Shown here: one piece after another, positions 17,061-47,414 of the stretch
Layout: each line of letters starts with the position of its first letter
How positions within the stretch are numbered: position 1 is the stretch's first letter
From: Methylophilaceae bacterium 11
GTDB taxonomy: Bacteria; Pseudomonadota; Gammaproteobacteria; Burkholderiales; Methylophilaceae
Reading direction: 5' to 3'
Assembly (NCBI GenBank): GCA_000525025.1
Contig: JCKJ01000001.1
Coordinates: forward strand, 496,001 to 560,000
DNA length: 64,000 bases
Program-made: the position numbers and the translations under genes
Notes under the pieces: generated by a model
What the model saw: only the letters and a program-made list of their open reading frames with translations
Databases searched by the model: none
Told to the model about the DNA's origin: nothing

Positions 17061-18110
17061 ATGTCACCACCACTAGATCATCAATTAACGGACTGGCGTA
17101 GCCATGCATTAAAGCTAGAAAACGAAGTTAAAAATGTCATCGTAGGCCAAGATAAAGCGATTCGGCTCATGAATATCGCCATTTTTGCACGCGGGCATGT
17201 ATTGCTTGATGGTGGTGTGGGCGTAGGTAAAACGACATTACTGCAATCCATTGCGCGTGGCATTGGTGGGGCCTATGAGCGTATTGAAGGTACGGTCGAT
17301 TTAATGCCCAACGACTTGATTTACCATACTTTTCTGGGGCCAGATGGTCGCCCACAAATTGATGAGGGCCCACTGTTGCGCGCTGGCGAAAAATTATCGG
17401 TGTTCTTTTTTAATGAGATTAATCGTGCTCGGCCACAAGTGCATGCGCTGATGTTACGGGTCATGGCAGAACGCCATCTCAGTGCTTTCAAAAAAGAATA
17501 TCGCATGCCGCACATGATTGTGTTTGCTGACCGTAACCAAGTAGAAAAAAATGAGACATTTGAAATTCCTTCAGCTGCGCGCGATCGTTTTATGATGGAA
17601 ATTCCGATTGAAATTCCAACGGATCGTGACTTAAAGAAATCTCTGATTTTCAATACTAAATTCCAACATGCAGAAAAACTGACTCAGCAAGTTGAAAGTG
17701 GGATTCTACAATTTGATCAACTGAATACTTTCTCTGACCTGTTACAAAACCACATCAAATCAAGTGATGTATTGGAAGAGTATGCCCTAGATTTATGGGA
17801 TGCAACTCAACATCCTGAGAAGTTCGGCGTGACAATGGAAAGTGTCGATGTTTTACGCGTTATTCAAAACGGCGCAAGTCCACGTGGTATGGGTATGCTG
17901 CTTAAAGCCGCACGCGTAAATGCTTGGTTAAATGGACGTGACAGTCTGTTTCCAGAAGATATCCATGCAGTATTCCATGAAGTGATTTCGCACAGGTTGG
18001 TATTTAACTCCATGTATGAAAACCGTAGAACCGCTCTGGCAAGGGAGCTCACGGCCAATATTATGAGTACCGTAGCTGTGCCTAGCACTACTTTTAGCAA
18101 AGCGGCTTAA
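17061..18110 (+). CDS. mxaR: MoxR-type AAA+ ATPase of the methanol dehydrogenase cluster
   Basis: Cytoplasmic AAA+ ATPase, 349 residues, founding type of the MoxR family. Walker A is GGVGVGKTT (residues 51-59). The Walker B position reads FFFNEINRARPQ (Asn119-Glu120), with Asn where MoxR relatives elsewhere usually have Asp. The sensor-like region with RDRFMMEIPI follows. MoxR proteins act as chaperones together with vWA-domain partners, here MxaS, MxaC and MxaL. In methylotrophs mxaR is needed for active methanol dehydrogenase. First gene of mxaRSACKL, with a good AGAGGAA site; mxaS follows after 28 bases. Confidence 0.92.
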   Translation: MSPPLDHQLTDWRSHALKLENEVKNVIVGQDKAIRLMNIAIFARGHVLLDGGVGVGKTTLLQSIARGIGGAYERIEGTVDLMPNDLIYHTFLGPDGRPQIDEGPLLRAGEKLSVFFFNEINRARPQVHALMLRVMAERHLSAFKKEYRMPHMIVFADRNQVEKNETFEIPSAARDRFMMEIPIEIPTDRDLKKSLIFNTKFQHAEKLTQQVESGILQFDQLNTFSDLLQNHIKSSDVLEEYALDLWDATQHPEKFGVTMESVDVLRVIQNGASPRGMGMLLKAARVNAWLNGRDSLFPEDIHAVFHEVISHRLVFNSMYENRRTALARELTANIMSTVAVPSTTFSKAA

Positions 18111-18138
18111 GCCATTCTGGTAAAAATAGGGTAATCAA

Positions 18139-19026
18139 ATGAGCTTATCAATACGTAATGCAGCAGACCCAACTTATGCCAAACCTTTTGAATATGTAGT
18201 CTCCTGGAAATCCACAAGCATACAGTTGGGGAACCATCGCGGCACTCAGCGCGGTCTAGGTTTGGAGTATCGCGGCAACGTTAACTTGGTGGATTACCCC
18301 GATGCAAGGCGTATGGATATCAGGCAAACGCTACGAGATCCTTTTGAGCAAGTGCAGGTACGGCAGTTTAATCAAGAGAGCACCACGCCGATCTATGCTG
18401 TTTGTGATTTATCTAGTTCCATGCAATTTAAGGGGCGCCAACGCAAGCTGGATAAAGCGATTGAGGTTTCGACAGCAGTTGCAACCTCGGCCTATCAAAC
18501 GGGCGACTTATTCAGTTTTATTGGTTACAACACCCATGTGCTTGAAGATTTCACGCTTCCGTTAAGCCGTAACTTGCATCAATCAAAAGAAGCAATTGCG
18601 CAGTTGCATCACTATCAAACAATGCGCGTTGGGGTAGAGGGTTTGAACGATGTGCCTAATTTTATCGGACAAAGCCGAGGCTTGGTGTTTTGGATATCAG
18701 ATTTTCACATGCCACTGAGTTTGATTGAGAAAACACTGACTGCTATGTCCGCACATCAGGTGATACCAATCGTGCTGTGGGACGATGAAGAGTATAAAAA
18801 ATTACCCAAGTTTGGCTTTGGCACCATGATAGACCCAGAAACTGGCCTGAACCGTACGTTGTTTTTTAGAGCAGAAGTCAGAGCGAAATTTATTTCAGTA
18901 TTCAATGCACGTAGACACGCGCTGGAGGCTTTGTTTTTGAAATTTGATAGCCCAGCGCTTTTTATGCACGGTGATTACAAGCCAGAAACCATGACCCATT
19001 ATTTTGAACAAAATATGAACCTATGA
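18139..19026 (+). CDS. mxaS: MxaS, DUF58/vWA-like methanol dehydrogenase accessory protein
   Basis: Cytoplasmic DUF58-family protein of 295 residues. A MIDAS-like metal site DLSSS sits at residues 90-94 (VCDLSSSMQFKG), followed by SDFHMPLS and a terminal acidic region. DUF58 proteins typically partner MoxR ATPases, which fits its place right after mxaR. Its precise biochemical role in methanol dehydrogenase maturation is not established. The stop overlaps the mxaA start by four bases (ATGA), indicating coupled translation. Confidence 0.9.
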   Translation: MSLSIRNAADPTYAKPFEYVVSWKSTSIQLGNHRGTQRGLGLEYRGNVNLVDYPDARRMDIRQTLRDPFEQVQVRQFNQESTTPIYAVCDLSSSMQFKGRQRKLDKAIEVSTAVATSAYQTGDLFSFIGYNTHVLEDFTLPLSRNLHQSKEAIAQLHHYQTMRVGVEGLNDVPNFIGQSRGLVFWISDFHMPLSLIEKTLTAMSAHQVIPIVLWDDEEYKKLPKFGFGTMIDPETGLNRTLFFRAEVRAKFISVFNARRHALEALFLKFDSPALFMHGDYKPETMTHYFEQNMNL

Positions 19027-37106: not shown

Positions 37107-37120
37107 ATGATGATCGTCAT
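37107..37120. promoter_or_regulatory. TetR-type operator 2
   Basis: ATGATGATCGTCAT, a near-palindrome sharing the CGTCAT half with operator 1 and the ATATGATGAT context with operator 3. It overlaps the possible start codons at 37107 and 37119. Confidence 0.6.
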
Positions 37121-37706
37121 GAAAAAATCTATTGGCAAACAAAATATTTCCAGCCGTAAGGAAATTACGCATATGCGAATTGTGGAAACTGCTGCTCGGG
37201 CTATCCGTAGAAGTGGTTATGATGGCACGGGCGTAGCCGATATTATGAAAGAAGCAGGCCTCACGCATGGTGGTTTTTACGCACATTTCGCATCTCGTGA
37301 TGCAATGCTTGCGGAGGCTGCTGATAAAGCCGGTGAAGAAACGGTTGCTATTGCTGAACATATATTCGCTAATGTTCCTGAAGATCAGGCACTGCAAGCT
37401 TTGATGCATGCATATTTATCAAATGAGCATATGGGCAACATTGAAAAAGGATGTTCCTTCGCGGCGCTAGGTTCTGAGATGCCGCGCCAAGCCCCTGAGG
37501 TGAGGAAAGCTTCTACTTGCCGCATCAAGGAAATGATAGGTCTAATTAAAAGTAAACTAGCAGACGAATCGAATCCGTATGAAAAAGCATTGGTCATGAT
37601 GTCCACCATGGTAGGAGCATTACTATTATCTCGTGCAGTCGATGACAATACACTTAGCGAAGATTTCCGCCAGGCAGCGTTAAAACACTACGATGCCAAA
37701 TTGTGA
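37119..37706 (+). CDS. TetR/AcrR-family repressor
   Basis: TetR regulator of 195 residues from the ATG at 37119. The DNA-binding domain (about residues 20-65) has IVETAARAIRRSGYDG and VADIMKEAGLTHGGFYAHF. The C-terminal ligand domain includes KGCSFAALGSEMPRQ. An upstream ATG at 37107 lies inside the palindrome; an internal ATG at 37173 with AAGGAA upstream would shorten the N-terminal arm. The operator motif in front of this gene recurs before the downstream SDR gene, so self-control and control of the 37809-40072 genes is inferred. Ligand unknown. Confidence 0.9.
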   Translation: MKKSIGKQNISSRKEITHMRIVETAARAIRRSGYDGTGVADIMKEAGLTHGGFYAHFASRDAMLAEAADKAGEETVAIAEHIFANVPEDQALQALMHAYLSNEHMGNIEKGCSFAALGSEMPRQAPEVRKASTCRIKEMIGLIKSKLADESNPYEKALVMMSTMVGALLLSRAVDDNTLSEDFRQAALKHYDAKL

Positions 37707-42711: not shown

Positions 42712-43461
42712 TTATTTTAAGAAATGCGCGGCATATCTTTTGTTGATTCTAGATAATGGCAACATTACCAGCATATCTGCGGTATTGAAATAGGCATCCC
42801 ATGCTGGCTCGCTACAAATGTAGGCGCCCAGTCTTAAATAGCCTTTAATCAGCGGCGGGCAGGCTACTTGAATGTCTTGATTCAAGGCTTCGATCGGTAA
42901 TGGGTTGTGTGGGAACACGCGATATTCTGGTGGTGATAGATAGTCATCTTTGAGGCGATTAAAGAGTGACGCGGCAGCATGACCACCATCGTTCATCGGT
43001 ACGCTAGCGCAGCCAATCATATACTCGTAATGATGCATTTGCATATATTTGGCCAAGCCCGCCCACAACATCGTAATAGTACCGCCGCTGCGATAATCTT
43101 GATGCACGCATGCGCGACCGACTTCTACGGTACGATCAAATAAATGTGTAATCCGGCTCAAGTCAAATTCGCCGGCAGAGTAATAACCGCCAGCTTGGGC
43201 AGCTTGATGTGGATTCAATATACGGTAAGTGCCAATTACTTGATGAGTGCTGCTTTCACGCACCAATAAGTGATCGCAGAAGGCATCAAATCCATCAATA
43301 TCTAATCCGCCGGTACCACTGACTTGCGCGCCCATCTCTTCGGCAAATACTTTGTAGCGTAAGCGCTGAGCTTCTGCAATCTCTGCAGGGGTGCGTGCAA
43401 TAGATAGATATAAGCGGCTTTGCGCTTGACTGGATTCTTGATTGAGTGCTTTTTGAAACAT
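42712..43461 (-). CDS. GNAT-fold acyltransferase, OlsB-like (lyso-ornithine lipid synthesis)
   Basis: 249-residue member of the hemolysin-like/OlsB acyltransferase family. It shows AEAQRLRYKVFAEEMGA, DAFCDHLLVRES, VIGTYRIL and VEVGRACVHQDYRSGGTI, followed by ASVPMNDGGHAAASLFN. Family members transfer a 3-hydroxyacyl chain from ACP to the ornithine amine. The adjacent PlsC gene completes an olsBA pair, giving phosphorus-free ornithine lipids. Such lipids often replace phospholipids in phosphate limitation; no Pho box was identified upstream. Confidence 0.85.
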   Translation of the reverse strand: MFQKALNQESSQAQSRLYLSIARTPAEIAEAQRLRYKVFAEEMGAQVSGTGGLDIDGFDAFCDHLLVRESSTHQVIGTYRILNPHQAAQAGGYYSAGEFDLSRITHLFDRTVEVGRACVHQDYRSGGTITMLWAGLAKYMQMHHYEYMIGCASVPMNDGGHAAASLFNRLKDDYLSPPEYRVFPHNPLPIEALNQDIQVACPPLIKGYLRLGAYICSEPAWDAYFNTADMLVMLPLSRINKRYAAHFLK

Positions 43462-45096: not shown

Positions 45097-45657
45097 TTAT
45101 TTGCGTGCGCCGTCGATTAGAATTTTGGCAGCTTGTTTCGCGTACTTGATGGCGCCAGAGCCACGTTTCATTTGCTCAGCTTGTACAGCGCCTTCAAACA
45201 GCAGTGAGAGCTGCAATGCCAAGCCGTCTGCATCCTGAATATTGGCGTCTGCTGCTAGTTTTGCAATATACAGTCTGAAATCTCTGGATTGTTGCGAAGA
45301 AAGTTGATGAATAGGGTTCTGCTCATCTGGAAATTCTGCAGAAGCTTTGATAAAGCCCATGCCTAAAAAGCTAGGAGAGCTGACCCACTCTTCAATGAAG
45401 TCAAATAATTGCTGTATTTTTTCTGTGGGTTTTTGATTGCTTGTGCTGAATTTAAGATCTAGCCAGCTTTGGAAGTCAGACTGACTTTTTCTTAATACTT
45501 CTAAAATCAACTCTTCCTTGGTGCGGAAGTATTTGTACAGTGTCATTTTAGTAGTGCCAGCCTCGGCTACAATGGTGTCTACGCCAGTCGAGTTAATCCC
45601 TCTCGTTTGAAAAAGATCGGTCGCCGTACTTAATATTCGTTCGCGTAACACAGACAT
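45097..45657 (-). CDS. TetR-family regulator
   Basis: 186-residue TetR protein. The helix-turn-helix is at about residues 8-47 (ILSTATDLFQTRGINSTG, VDTIVAEAGTTKMTLYKYF). The C-terminal half has LFDFIEEW (84-91), FIKASAEFP, NPIHQL and AKQAAKILI (173-181), typical of a common TetR ligand-domain subfamily. The gene upstream on the same strand, 61 bases away, encodes a membrane protein whose cytoplasmic half looks like this C-terminal domain. The target genes are unknown. Confidence 0.92.
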   Translation of the reverse strand: MSVLRERILSTATDLFQTRGINSTGVDTIVAEAGTTKMTLYKYFRTKEELILEVLRKSQSDFQSWLDLKFSTSNQKPTEKIQQLFDFIEEWVSSPSFLGMGFIKASAEFPDEQNPIHQLSSQQSRDFRLYIAKLAADANIQDADGLALQLSLLFEGAVQAEQMKRGSGAIKYAKQAAKILIDGARK

Positions 45658-45718
45658 AATTTCATTATACTAATCTGTATATATAGTGCAAGTGTAATTT
45701 TAAAGTGTGATTTTAGGG

Positions 45719-46492
45719 TTAGTTTTTGGAGTTGGCCATTAGCATGGGTGTGTAATTACACCTCACCATGTCGAGTAGCTGATTGGTCAGTCGCTGATCT
45801 TCACGGTTCACGGAAATTTGGCCTAGTATAATATTTTCAAAATACACTTTTTTATAAGAATCAGGCAGTTGCAAAGCCTCTATTAATTGACAATTGCCTT
45901 TACGCATTTGTTCAATCCGGGCAAATAGTGCTGCCGTTTGCTCCGGGCTGGCGGTGAGGTGGCTGGCATCGGCCACCATGCCAGTGGCTGGACCCATGTT
46001 TGGCATGGTGTCACTTGCAAATTGCGCTGTGTGTGCAACTGGGTCAATGTCGTTGTATTTCCAGAACTGGTACCCAATCATGCTGCTAATAATGAGTATG
46101 GTGCTGGCCGCTACCGCATAGGCTGGTTTTTTAGGTACGTGAAACTCACGTTTGGTCTGCGCTGCAATCAAGGCCTTCGCCGCGTTTTTTGCATGCGATA
46201 AGCTAGCCGGGTTTTGGTGATGCAGCTTTTCTTGTGCGGCAGCAATCGCCATAAAATACAGTTGGTTTGCCAATAGCTCAGGCATGGCTGCACCTGCCTT
46301 GGCAGCTTCTAGCGTAAGGTAATGTACCAGTGGTGAGTCGCCTTGAGATGGTTTGAAGTCAACACGGGGCTGCATTTTGGGCGCATCCAGCCAGTCATCA
46401 AGCAGATCGAATAAATGCAGTAGACGGCTGTGTGGTGTGCTGCCCGATTTTTTAAGCATGGCGATTAACCATTCGGAATTGAGTATATCCAT
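45719..46492 (-). CDS. Membrane protein with HTH-less TetR-like cytoplasmic domain
   Basis: 257-residue protein. Residues about 7-110 align by eye to the TetR regulator at 45097 just after its DNA-binding helices: WLIAMLKKS with LILEVLRKS, LFDLLDDWLDAP with LFDFIEEWVSSP at the same spacing, SPLVHYL with NPIHQL, LANQL with LALQL, and AKNAAKALI with AKQAAKILI. About 15 residues are missing in the middle. A membrane segment follows (about 124-144), then a region of about 110 residues, probably periplasmic, with two Cys. Sits 14 bases after hemJ and 61 before the TetR gene. Function unknown; it could modulate the regulator or share its signal. Confidence 0.75.
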   Translation of the reverse strand: MDILNSEWLIAMLKKSGSTPHSRLLHLFDLLDDWLDAPKMQPRVDFKPSQGDSPLVHYLTLEAAKAGAAMPELLANQLYFMAIAAAQEKLHHQNPASLSHAKNAAKALIAAQTKREFHVPKKPAYAVAASTILIISSMIGYQFWKYNDIDPVAHTAQFASDTMPNMGPATGMVADASHLTASPEQTAALFARIEQMRKGNCQLIEALQLPDSYKKVYFENIILGQISVNREDQRLTNQLLDMVRCNYTPMLMANSKN

Positions 46493-46506: not shown

Positions 46507-46917
46507 CTAAAAAGGTTTGACGACCACTAGAATCACGATTGCAAATAATACTAACACGGGGAATTCATTAAACCAGCGATACCACATATGGCTATGCTGA
46601 TTTTTGCCAGCGGCAAAGTCTCGCATCAGCTTGCCGCAGTATAGATGATAAGCCACTAAGCCTATTACCAGCGCCAGTTTGGCATGTAGCCAGCCGCCCG
46701 TGATGCCATAGCCCAACCACAGCCATAGCCCTAATGCCAATGCAAGCACTGCAAGCGGCAACATGAATCGGTATAGCTTCTGTTCCATCAGCGCCAATCG
46801 TGCTTTTGTATTGGCATCATCTACCATGGCATGATTCACAAATAGGCGTGGCAAATAAAACAGGCCGGCGAACCAACTGATCACAAAAATAATATGGAGT
46901 GCTTTAATCCACAGCAT
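46507..46917 (-). CDS. hemJ: Protoporphyrinogen oxidase HemJ
   Basis: 136-residue membrane protein with four segments. The conserved N-terminal KALHIIFVISWFAGLFYLPR (with the early His and Arg) and the C-terminal MWYRWFNEFPVLVLF match HemJ, which oxidises protoporphyrinogen IX in haem synthesis. The ATG overlaps the tlpA-like stop by one base (TAATG), so the two are translationally coupled. Confidence 0.9.
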   Translation of the reverse strand: MLWIKALHIIFVISWFAGLFYLPRLFVNHAMVDDANTKARLALMEQKLYRFMLPLAVLALALGLWLWLGYGITGGWLHAKLALVIGLVAYHLYCGKLMRDFAAGKNQHSHMWYRWFNEFPVLVLFAIVILVVVKPF

Positions 46918-47414
46918 TAGTGCAGTTCTTTATCTAGTAGCTGACGCAATTCTGCAAAGTTTAGCTCGCCAATAATCCGTTGCACGCGATTTCCCTGCTT
47001 ATCGTAAAGAAACGTGGTGGGGGTTAGGTTAACACCGCCAAACGCATGCACCATTTCGCTCAGTCCATCGTGCATCACTGGGAAAGGTAGCGATTTTTGT
47101 TGCGTATAGTTAAGTACTTGCGCGGGCGGGTCGTATGGCATTGCCACTGCAATCACTTCAAACCCTTTTTGTTTGTATTCATTGTATGTATTGATCAAAT
47201 CTGGCATTTCTTTGATGCAGCCTGGGCAATCGGTGGCCCAAAAATTAACCAGTACCACTTTGCCTTTTAATGCGGCCATGGGTATCTTTTCACCACGAAT
47301 GGTCGTGAAAGTGACATCCGGAGATTGTGCTGTTTGCGATAAGCTGAATATCAATGCACCTAATAACGCAGCCAGCGCAAGTGGGATAAGAATTTTTTTA
47401 AAATGTGTCATCAT
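46917..47414 (-). CDS. TlpA/ResA-like thiol-disulfide oxidoreductase
   Basis: 165-residue thioredoxin-fold protein with an N-terminal anchor or signal (about 8-26) and the active site WATDCPGCIKEMP (Cys pair about 66 and 69), with the cis-Pro segment LTPTTFLYD. Periplasmic; may reduce apocytochrome c cysteines or act as a peroxiredoxin-like reductase. First gene of a minus-strand run with hemJ, which links haem and cytochrome biogenesis. Confidence 0.9.
   Translation of the reverse strand: MMTHFKKILIPLALAALLGALIFSLSQTAQSPDVTFTTIRGEKIPMAALKGKVVLVNFWATDCPGCIKEMPDLINTYNEYKQKGFEVIAVAMPYDPPAQVLNYTQQKSLPFPVMHDGLSEMVHAFGGVNLTPTTFLYDKQGNRVQRIIGELNFAELRQLLDKELH

Follow-up and report, generated by a model that had tools for sequence, protein, structure and literature searches.

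TetR regulators are very common bacterial one-component switches that are taken to read cytoplasmic ligands. What, then, is the C-terminal half of such a regulator doing in a membrane protein encoded beside an intact TetR gene? The arrangement is found in a 64,000-nt stretch of Methylophilaceae bacterium 11 (GenBank assembly GCA_000525025.1, contig JCKJ01000001.1, positions 496,001 to 560,000), hereafter the window, where gene M encodes the membrane protein and gene T the regulator. Our reading, to which we assign a probability of about 0.5, is that M and T may constitute a two-protein, TetR-based transmembrane switch in which M acts as a membrane-tethered anti-repressor. The two genes and the parts of M lie as follows in window coordinates.

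45719..46492, minus strand: gene M, TetR-derived transmembrane protein of 257 amino acids (open reading frame, relatives, profile and fold matches)
46145..46477, minus strand: residues 6-116 of M, TetR C-terminal domain (hhalign, AlphaFold2 model, Foldseek)
46061..46132, minus strand: residues 121-144 of M, single predicted transmembrane helix, N-in (AlphaFold2 helix of low confidence, predicted local distance difference test [pLDDT] ~55; hydropathy)
45722..45946, minus strand: residues 183-257 of M, outer domain predicted to be periplasmic, in which Cys201 and Cys245 are invariant (AlphaFold2 model, alignments)
45890..45892, minus strand: codon of Cys201 (alignment rows)
45758..45760, minus strand: codon of Cys245 (alignment rows)
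45097..45657, minus strand: gene T, partner TetR regulator of 186 amino acids (Pfam TetR_N, E 3.3e-15; AlphaFold2 model)

A first-pass annotation, made from the letters of the window alone, had proposed that M matches the neighbouring TetR regulator from just past its helix-turn-helix, and profile comparison bears this out. BLASTP aligned M with T at E 1e-7 (25% identity over 122 columns), and hhalign of 35 M against 25 T sequences gave a probability of 99.0 and E 5.3e-18, with M6-116 aligned to T63-186; when 69 M were compared with 45 T sequences in a further run, the values were 97.6 and 3.7e-12. Most of the shared anchors named earlier (LFD..W, LANQL/LALQL and AKNAAKALI/AKQAAKILI) stand, while WLIAMLKKS pairs with T64-73 (SWLDLKFSTS) and not with LILEVLRKS (T50-58). 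Evidence independent of T comes from the PDB, where the top match of the M profile was the TetR regulator 3jsj (E 0.0017, chain residues 78-163). In the AlphaFold2 model of M (mean pLDDT 80.6, predicted template modelling score 0.52) the domain is built of helices 7-16, 20-36, 54-65, 71-92 and 97-113, the last two of which correspond to TetR a8/a9. Foldseek of this model against the PDB returned TetR-type regulators at all of ranks 1-28, with 3jsj first (probability 1.00, E 0.063); SlmA and HapR/SmcR among these matches we take to be members of the TetR family. The nearest folds of M modelled alone are thus those of TetR regulators, and the lack of a TetR-like fold, which the first-pass annotation had named as grounds for abandoning its proposal, was not seen.

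That the N-terminal part of M should be a helical bundle of other origin, with no more than an accidental likeness to TetR, is exceedingly improbable. Such a view could draw on Pfam, in which M has no significant family, and on the Foldseek E-values, every one of which exceeds 0.001. The Pfam signal is indeed the weaker one: TetR_C_31, the family matched most often by the 35 M members, was hit by three of them (best E 0.0085), and single members match unrelated families (best CPP1-like, E 0.0021; BRE4, E 0.086, for M of the window). Chance similarity was rejected on the profile-profile, PDB and Foldseek results, and also on matches outside the family; the tree described below speaks against it as well. 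Outside the family the M profile aligns mostly within columns 7-131, to reading frames mostly of 190-300 amino acids. Of 17 such loci inspected, 15 encode TetR regulators and two (L057, L058) match the membrane stretch only; three outside matches (G213, G272, G748) cover only the membrane stretch or its surroundings and not columns 7-131. That the N-terminal part of M is a TetR-type C-terminal domain without its DNA-binding part can be regarded as confirmed, as far as sequence and model comparisons go.

The loss of the DNA-binding part, also noted earlier, appears genuine. TetR_N was absent from M of the window in Pfam and from the 21 families matched by the 35 M members; T carries both TetR_N and a TetR-type C-terminal domain, and M the latter only. 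The start codon of M lies 14 bp past the stop codon of a HemJ-like gene (46507), which leaves no space for an overlooked helix-turn-helix. A frameshifted or misannotated full-length TetR was ruled out for want of space upstream and by the presence of M in 70 named loci.

How did M come by this domain? From 89 sequences aligned over 124 columns of the TetR C-terminal region we computed a tree (IQ-TREE LG+G4, ultrafast bootstrap) that included 15 outside TetRs, namely only those matched by the M profile. M was monophyletic (99), T was monophyletic (92), and M and T together were separated from the 15 outside TetRs (98), so that the partial duplication suggested by the first-pass annotation finds phylogenetic backing. 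These groupings support the conclusion that M arose by one old duplication of the T lineage, losing the helix-turn-helix and gaining the membrane helix and outer domain. Paralogous pairs of M and T fall into two further classes, 2 and 3, and in both tree sets the M members of each class form a single clade, as do its T members. Class 1 was monophyletic for T and not for M in the full-length trees, where L031 joins class 3 in M, and in neither part of the domain tree; L031 is the main misfit. The monophyly and the paired classes together point to one duplication that made M, with later copies most likely having arisen as M-T pairs.

M and T are closely bound to each other in the genomes that carry them. 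The window and 70 named loci (mostly from Methylophilaceae genera, some with broader titles and one from Sulfuritalea) share a common gene order. T was found in 68 of the 71, always downstream of M on the same strand at 50-4200 bp (median 297); in the three loci without T the contig ends there, in one case inside T. Relatives of M occurred in 33 of 61 genomes, all of the Methylophilaceae. Among 150 sampled genomes of this family, all 101 with T also had M (best E 1.1e-41 or lower), which together with the order fixed in 68 of 68 loci answers favourably the earlier question of whether the pair is conserved. The one genome with M and no T (G024) has an M that ends 8 bases before the end of its contig. 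The cut-offs (T, E <= 1e-25; genuine M, best E <= 1e-35) were both chosen after the scores were known, and G064 (6.6e-4) and G126 (2.9e-10) were dropped from the M count, lowering it from 104 to 102. Many of the listed family genomes without both M and T are of 1.2-1.4 Mb (g14, g16), and one is of 3.2 Mb; the latter (G065), which is nearly complete, might show how the pair has been replaced. A wider distribution of M was rejected, as samples of 369 class and 398 phylum genomes, with the best 6-7 candidates per genome scored, gave full-length M only from its own family (G000 in the class sample, G000 and G031 in the phylum sample).

The membrane segment proposed by the first-pass annotation is predicted by two features of the 69 aligned M proteins. 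The most hydrophobic 19-residue stretch starts at positions 119-143 (median best KD19 hydropathy 2.0), and Lys and Arg are richer before it than after it in 63 of 69 sequences and poorer in one. This bias predicts an N-in orientation, with the C-terminal domain in the periplasm. The added C-terminal domain, put earlier at about 110 residues, is present; in the AlphaFold2 model it resolves into a low-confidence linker (145-182), which follows the low-confidence helix 121-144, and a domain of about 75 residues (183-257). Every M protein of both alignments (69 of 69 and 35 of 35) has Cys201 and Cys245, which sit on two short strands of the model. The outer domain had no match in Pfam or NCBIfam, and it was found in two of 398 phylum genomes, both of the same family. 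Among PDB entries it matched 5h7b, which consists of protein A repeats, at E 5.5e-6 over positions 7-49 of an 82-position model. As no single stretch qualified by itself, this was judged to be a chance match between helices.

The DNA on the other side of the proposed switch can be read from conservation. T is modelled as a nine-helix TetR protein, and its nearest named NCBIfam model is DicD/YjdC (82 bits, below the cut-off of 240); it is 24% identical to E. coli DicD over 181 residues. Two elements stand upstream of it.

45666..45681: operator-like palindrome TATAC-N6-GTATA, which overlaps the T promoter at its -10 (sequence, conservation across loci)
45664..45691, minus strand: putative T promoter TTGCAC-N16-TATAAT (read from the sequence, without a promoter scan)

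Of 68 loci, 50 have the exact palindrome in the 150 bp preceding T, whereas mononucleotide shuffling gives an expectation of 0.02. In 30 of the 68, M and T are separated by a divergent SRPBCC gene (PF10604), whose product is predicted to be secreted on the basis of its N-terminus, and in 25 of these 30 the operator stands between this gene and T. The genome of the window holds seven occurrences of the motif vs. four of the reversed control, two of the seven being tandem copies immediately before an SRPBCC gene at another chromosomal position (L142:998-3986), near a PQQ dehydrogenase gene that we take to be XoxF-like. In the set of 30 SRPBCC loci returned for 42 of the 61 genomes with a match, the 250 bp preceding the gene held the exact operator in 24, against an expectation of 0.03. 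The SRPBCC gene is clearly away from T and has the operator in L145, L148, L150, and L151; in L149, L154, and L155 it is away from T and has none, and in L146 it is on a different contig from T. The operator was also absent from L147, where the SRPBCC gene is downstream of T on the same strand, and from L173 and L174, which are from other families. Because both sets of loci (70 named, 30 with SRPBCC) include close relatives, these counts are not independent. Judging by motif conservation, TATAC-N6-GTATA is very likely the site to which T binds, both in the T promoter and at the gene of the SRPBCC protein predicted to be secreted. Three further occurrences of the motif may be T sites or background: between a second MoxR-type operon and a gene presumed to be FabA-like (L140:3404), upstream of a PQQ beta-propeller gene (L141:3279), and at the 5' end of a cupin gene (L143:3209).

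What M might do to T is suggested by which parts of the domain it has kept. Helices a8 and a9 form the dimer interface of TetR regulators. Mean identity between M and its own T over 37 pairs was 0.24 in a4-a5, 0.26 in a8, 0.25 in a9 and 0.17 in a7. It was 0.09 for a6, the segment that separates a5 from a7, where a mean of 0.48 of T positions have a counterpart in M. The T-invariant residues G99, E108, F109, and P110 lie in this segment, so M has kept the dimerisation helices a8/a9 and lost most of the pocket loop. This combination favours a membrane-tethered heterodimer partner, i.e., an anti-repressor. The first-pass annotation had also considered that M binds the same ligand as T, which is now disfavoured by the loss of most of the a5-a7 segment. 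For M to be a cytoplasmic sensor or decoy that binds and buffers the small molecule read by T is thus very unlikely: most of the TetR C-terminal helices are indeed retained, but the segment that holds these T-invariant residues is mostly gone.

Under the anti-repressor reading, T as a homodimer would repress its own gene and the SRPBCC gene, while at the membrane a8/a9 of M would be available to T for dimerisation. The resulting M:T heterodimer would possess a single DNA-binding head, which would take T off the palindromic operator and derepress the genes. The periplasmic domain of M would set the amount of M that is free to take up T, possibly via the Cys201-Cys245 pair and the TlpA-like protein that is often encoded upstream. 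The same pairing and homology would equally suit a membrane co-repressor or localiser, in which M aids repression by binding T as a dimer of dimers or by recruiting it to the membrane; moreover, M and T in the paralogous classes resemble one autoregulated operon, as would befit stoichiometric joint action. We consider this alternative unlikely, since a heterodimer formed through a8/a9 would bring one DNA-binding head to a symmetric palindromic operator.

The genes upstream of M bear both on the signal that an anti-repressor might receive and on an alternative in which M does not touch T at all.

46507..46917, minus strand: HemJ-like gene (UPF0093), directly upstream of M (library match; neighbour counts)
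46917..47414, minus strand: gene of a TlpA/ResA-like thiol-disulfide oxidoreductase, presumably the first in an operon that includes M (library match; neighbour counts)

The HemJ-like gene was just upstream of M in 70 of the 71 loci, the remaining one being cut by the contig end, and a TlpA-like gene was found further upstream in 66 and PfkB in 67. In E. coli, dicD follows dsbD on the same strand after a gap of 36 bp, and this neighbourhood and the TlpA/ResA-like gene both point to thiol chemistry; DicD itself has been treated in work on cell division genes, as excerpted from PMC9283627. We infer the direction and nature of the signal, and a possible redox activity of the cysteines of M. Alternatively, M could homodimerise and serve the envelope (in thiol, heme, or C1 metabolism), its place beside T being a relic of tandem duplication. 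The constancy of the HemJ-like and TlpA-like neighbours would fit such a role, as would the lack of an M-T covariation signal (see below), but it is quite unlikely given that every genome with T has M and that paralogous pairs elsewhere in the genomes stay together without TlpA or HemJ.

The paralogous pairs also point to further copies of the proposed switch. The second pair in the genome of the window (L132:7434-8814; G000:C1:2218433-2219813) is transcribed divergently from what we take to be the gene of a MoxR-type ATPase and a cluster of the mxa type (methanol oxidation). Class 2 has its own candidate operator, CAGACAGGTCTGT, an inverted repeat near the start or promoter of M2 in all eight loci examined. 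It occurs exactly twice in the genome of the window, at M2 and ~50 bp upstream of a small gene near T2 (L132:6906-7304), which encodes a hydrophobic protein of 132 amino acids that was not assigned to a family and has a homologue between T and M in L031. In class 3, an inverted repeat was seen near the M start in three of four loci, one of them (L036) by eye and absent from the palindromes found by script. As a separate observation, the window holds a further MoxR/MxaS-type gene pair (17076-19017) that is 83% and 63% identical to the pair beside the second M-T copy. In its fullest form our reading is that a duplicated TetR dimerisation domain in the inner membrane receives a signal from the periplasm, which may be of thiol-redox kind, and governs the related repressor in the cytosol by swapping partners within the dimer, and that the pair was duplicated as a unit whose copies took on their own operator and target (the SRPBCC gene in class 1, the small hydrophobic protein in class 2). 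We put this forward tentatively, at slightly less than even odds.

Several observations weigh against the anti-repressor reading and its extensions. M-T covariation was not enriched at a8/a9 in an underpowered set of 86 pairs (effective number of sequences 41), and a8-a9 of M are no closer to T of their own class than to T of the other classes. The order of classes differs between the trees, class 2 M nesting within class 1 M (98) in the domain tree and class 2 T not doing so within class 1 T. In 18 of 68 loci the 150 bp preceding T contain no exact operator, in 6 of 30 the SRPBCC gene lacks one upstream, and no exact copy stands upstream of the presumed M operon in the class of the window. 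TlpA is missing in L110, L112, and L116, which have M and T, though the upstream DNA is present, and the paralogous pairs have no TlpA neighbour in the stretches seen; the disulfide and the TlpA link rest on inference.

M can be placed among systems that are already described. From TetR/AcrR regulators, of which T is an ordinary member and DicD/YjdC the nearest named in E. coli, it takes the C-terminal helical domain and differs in having no helix-turn-helix and in bearing a predicted membrane helix and an outer domain. Transmembrane anti-sigma factors are membrane proteins paired with a cytosolic regulator; M likewise has a cytosolic partner, which is a TetR protein and not a sigma factor. 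Id proteins are transcription-factor paralogues that retain the dimerisation part without the DNA-binding one, a description that, in excerpts of PMC6003976, also holds for microProteins. M is similarly a regulator paralogue without a DNA-binding part, as judged from the tree and the absence of TetR_N, but it is bacterial, TetR-type, and membrane-anchored with a sensor-like outer domain, and its heterodimer with T is putative. In LytTR regulatory systems, as far as the excerpted text of PMC13384398 describes them, a transcription factor is held at the membrane by a co-encoded membrane protein. M would work most like these membrane proteins; going by that text, it differs in being a paralogue of its regulator, in having one helix and an outer domain, and in preceding the regulator gene, and the partner found here is a TetR protein instead of a LytTR DNA-binding one. 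CadC/ToxR-type transmembrane regulators, according to the portion of PMC10269533 consulted, pass a signal through the membrane by means of a protein with its own DNA-binding domain. The route to gene control is alike to that extent, but M has the membrane helix only, the DNA-binding part being a second, soluble protein, T. No TetR-derived membrane partner appeared in the best-ranked results from the open literature, where many hits were off-topic words in 'tetr' and most subscription papers fell outside the scope. A membrane-held partner of a soluble regulator is therefore a known idea, and the TetR dimerisation domain in the membrane is the part that we did not find described.

Two further features of the window deserve mention. 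A GNAT/autoinducer-synthase-like acyltransferase gene (42712-43461; Acetyltransf_5) and the PlsC-like gene that accompanies it occur near M-T in 61 and 59 of the 71 loci, respectively. Another gene at 37107-37706, which we take to be TetR-like, adjoins what are presumably short-chain dehydrogenase and quinone oxidoreductase genes.

The M-T family suggests a way in which a TetR switch could be wired to the outside of the cell, by duplicating its dimerisation half and placing the copy in the membrane, and thereby a new route for a signal across the membrane to a TetR-type switch. The pair has been kept throughout the methanol-consuming Methylophilaceae. Its operator is readable, a gene can be named as its candidate target, and one of its copies adjoins an mxa-like cluster for methanol oxidation.
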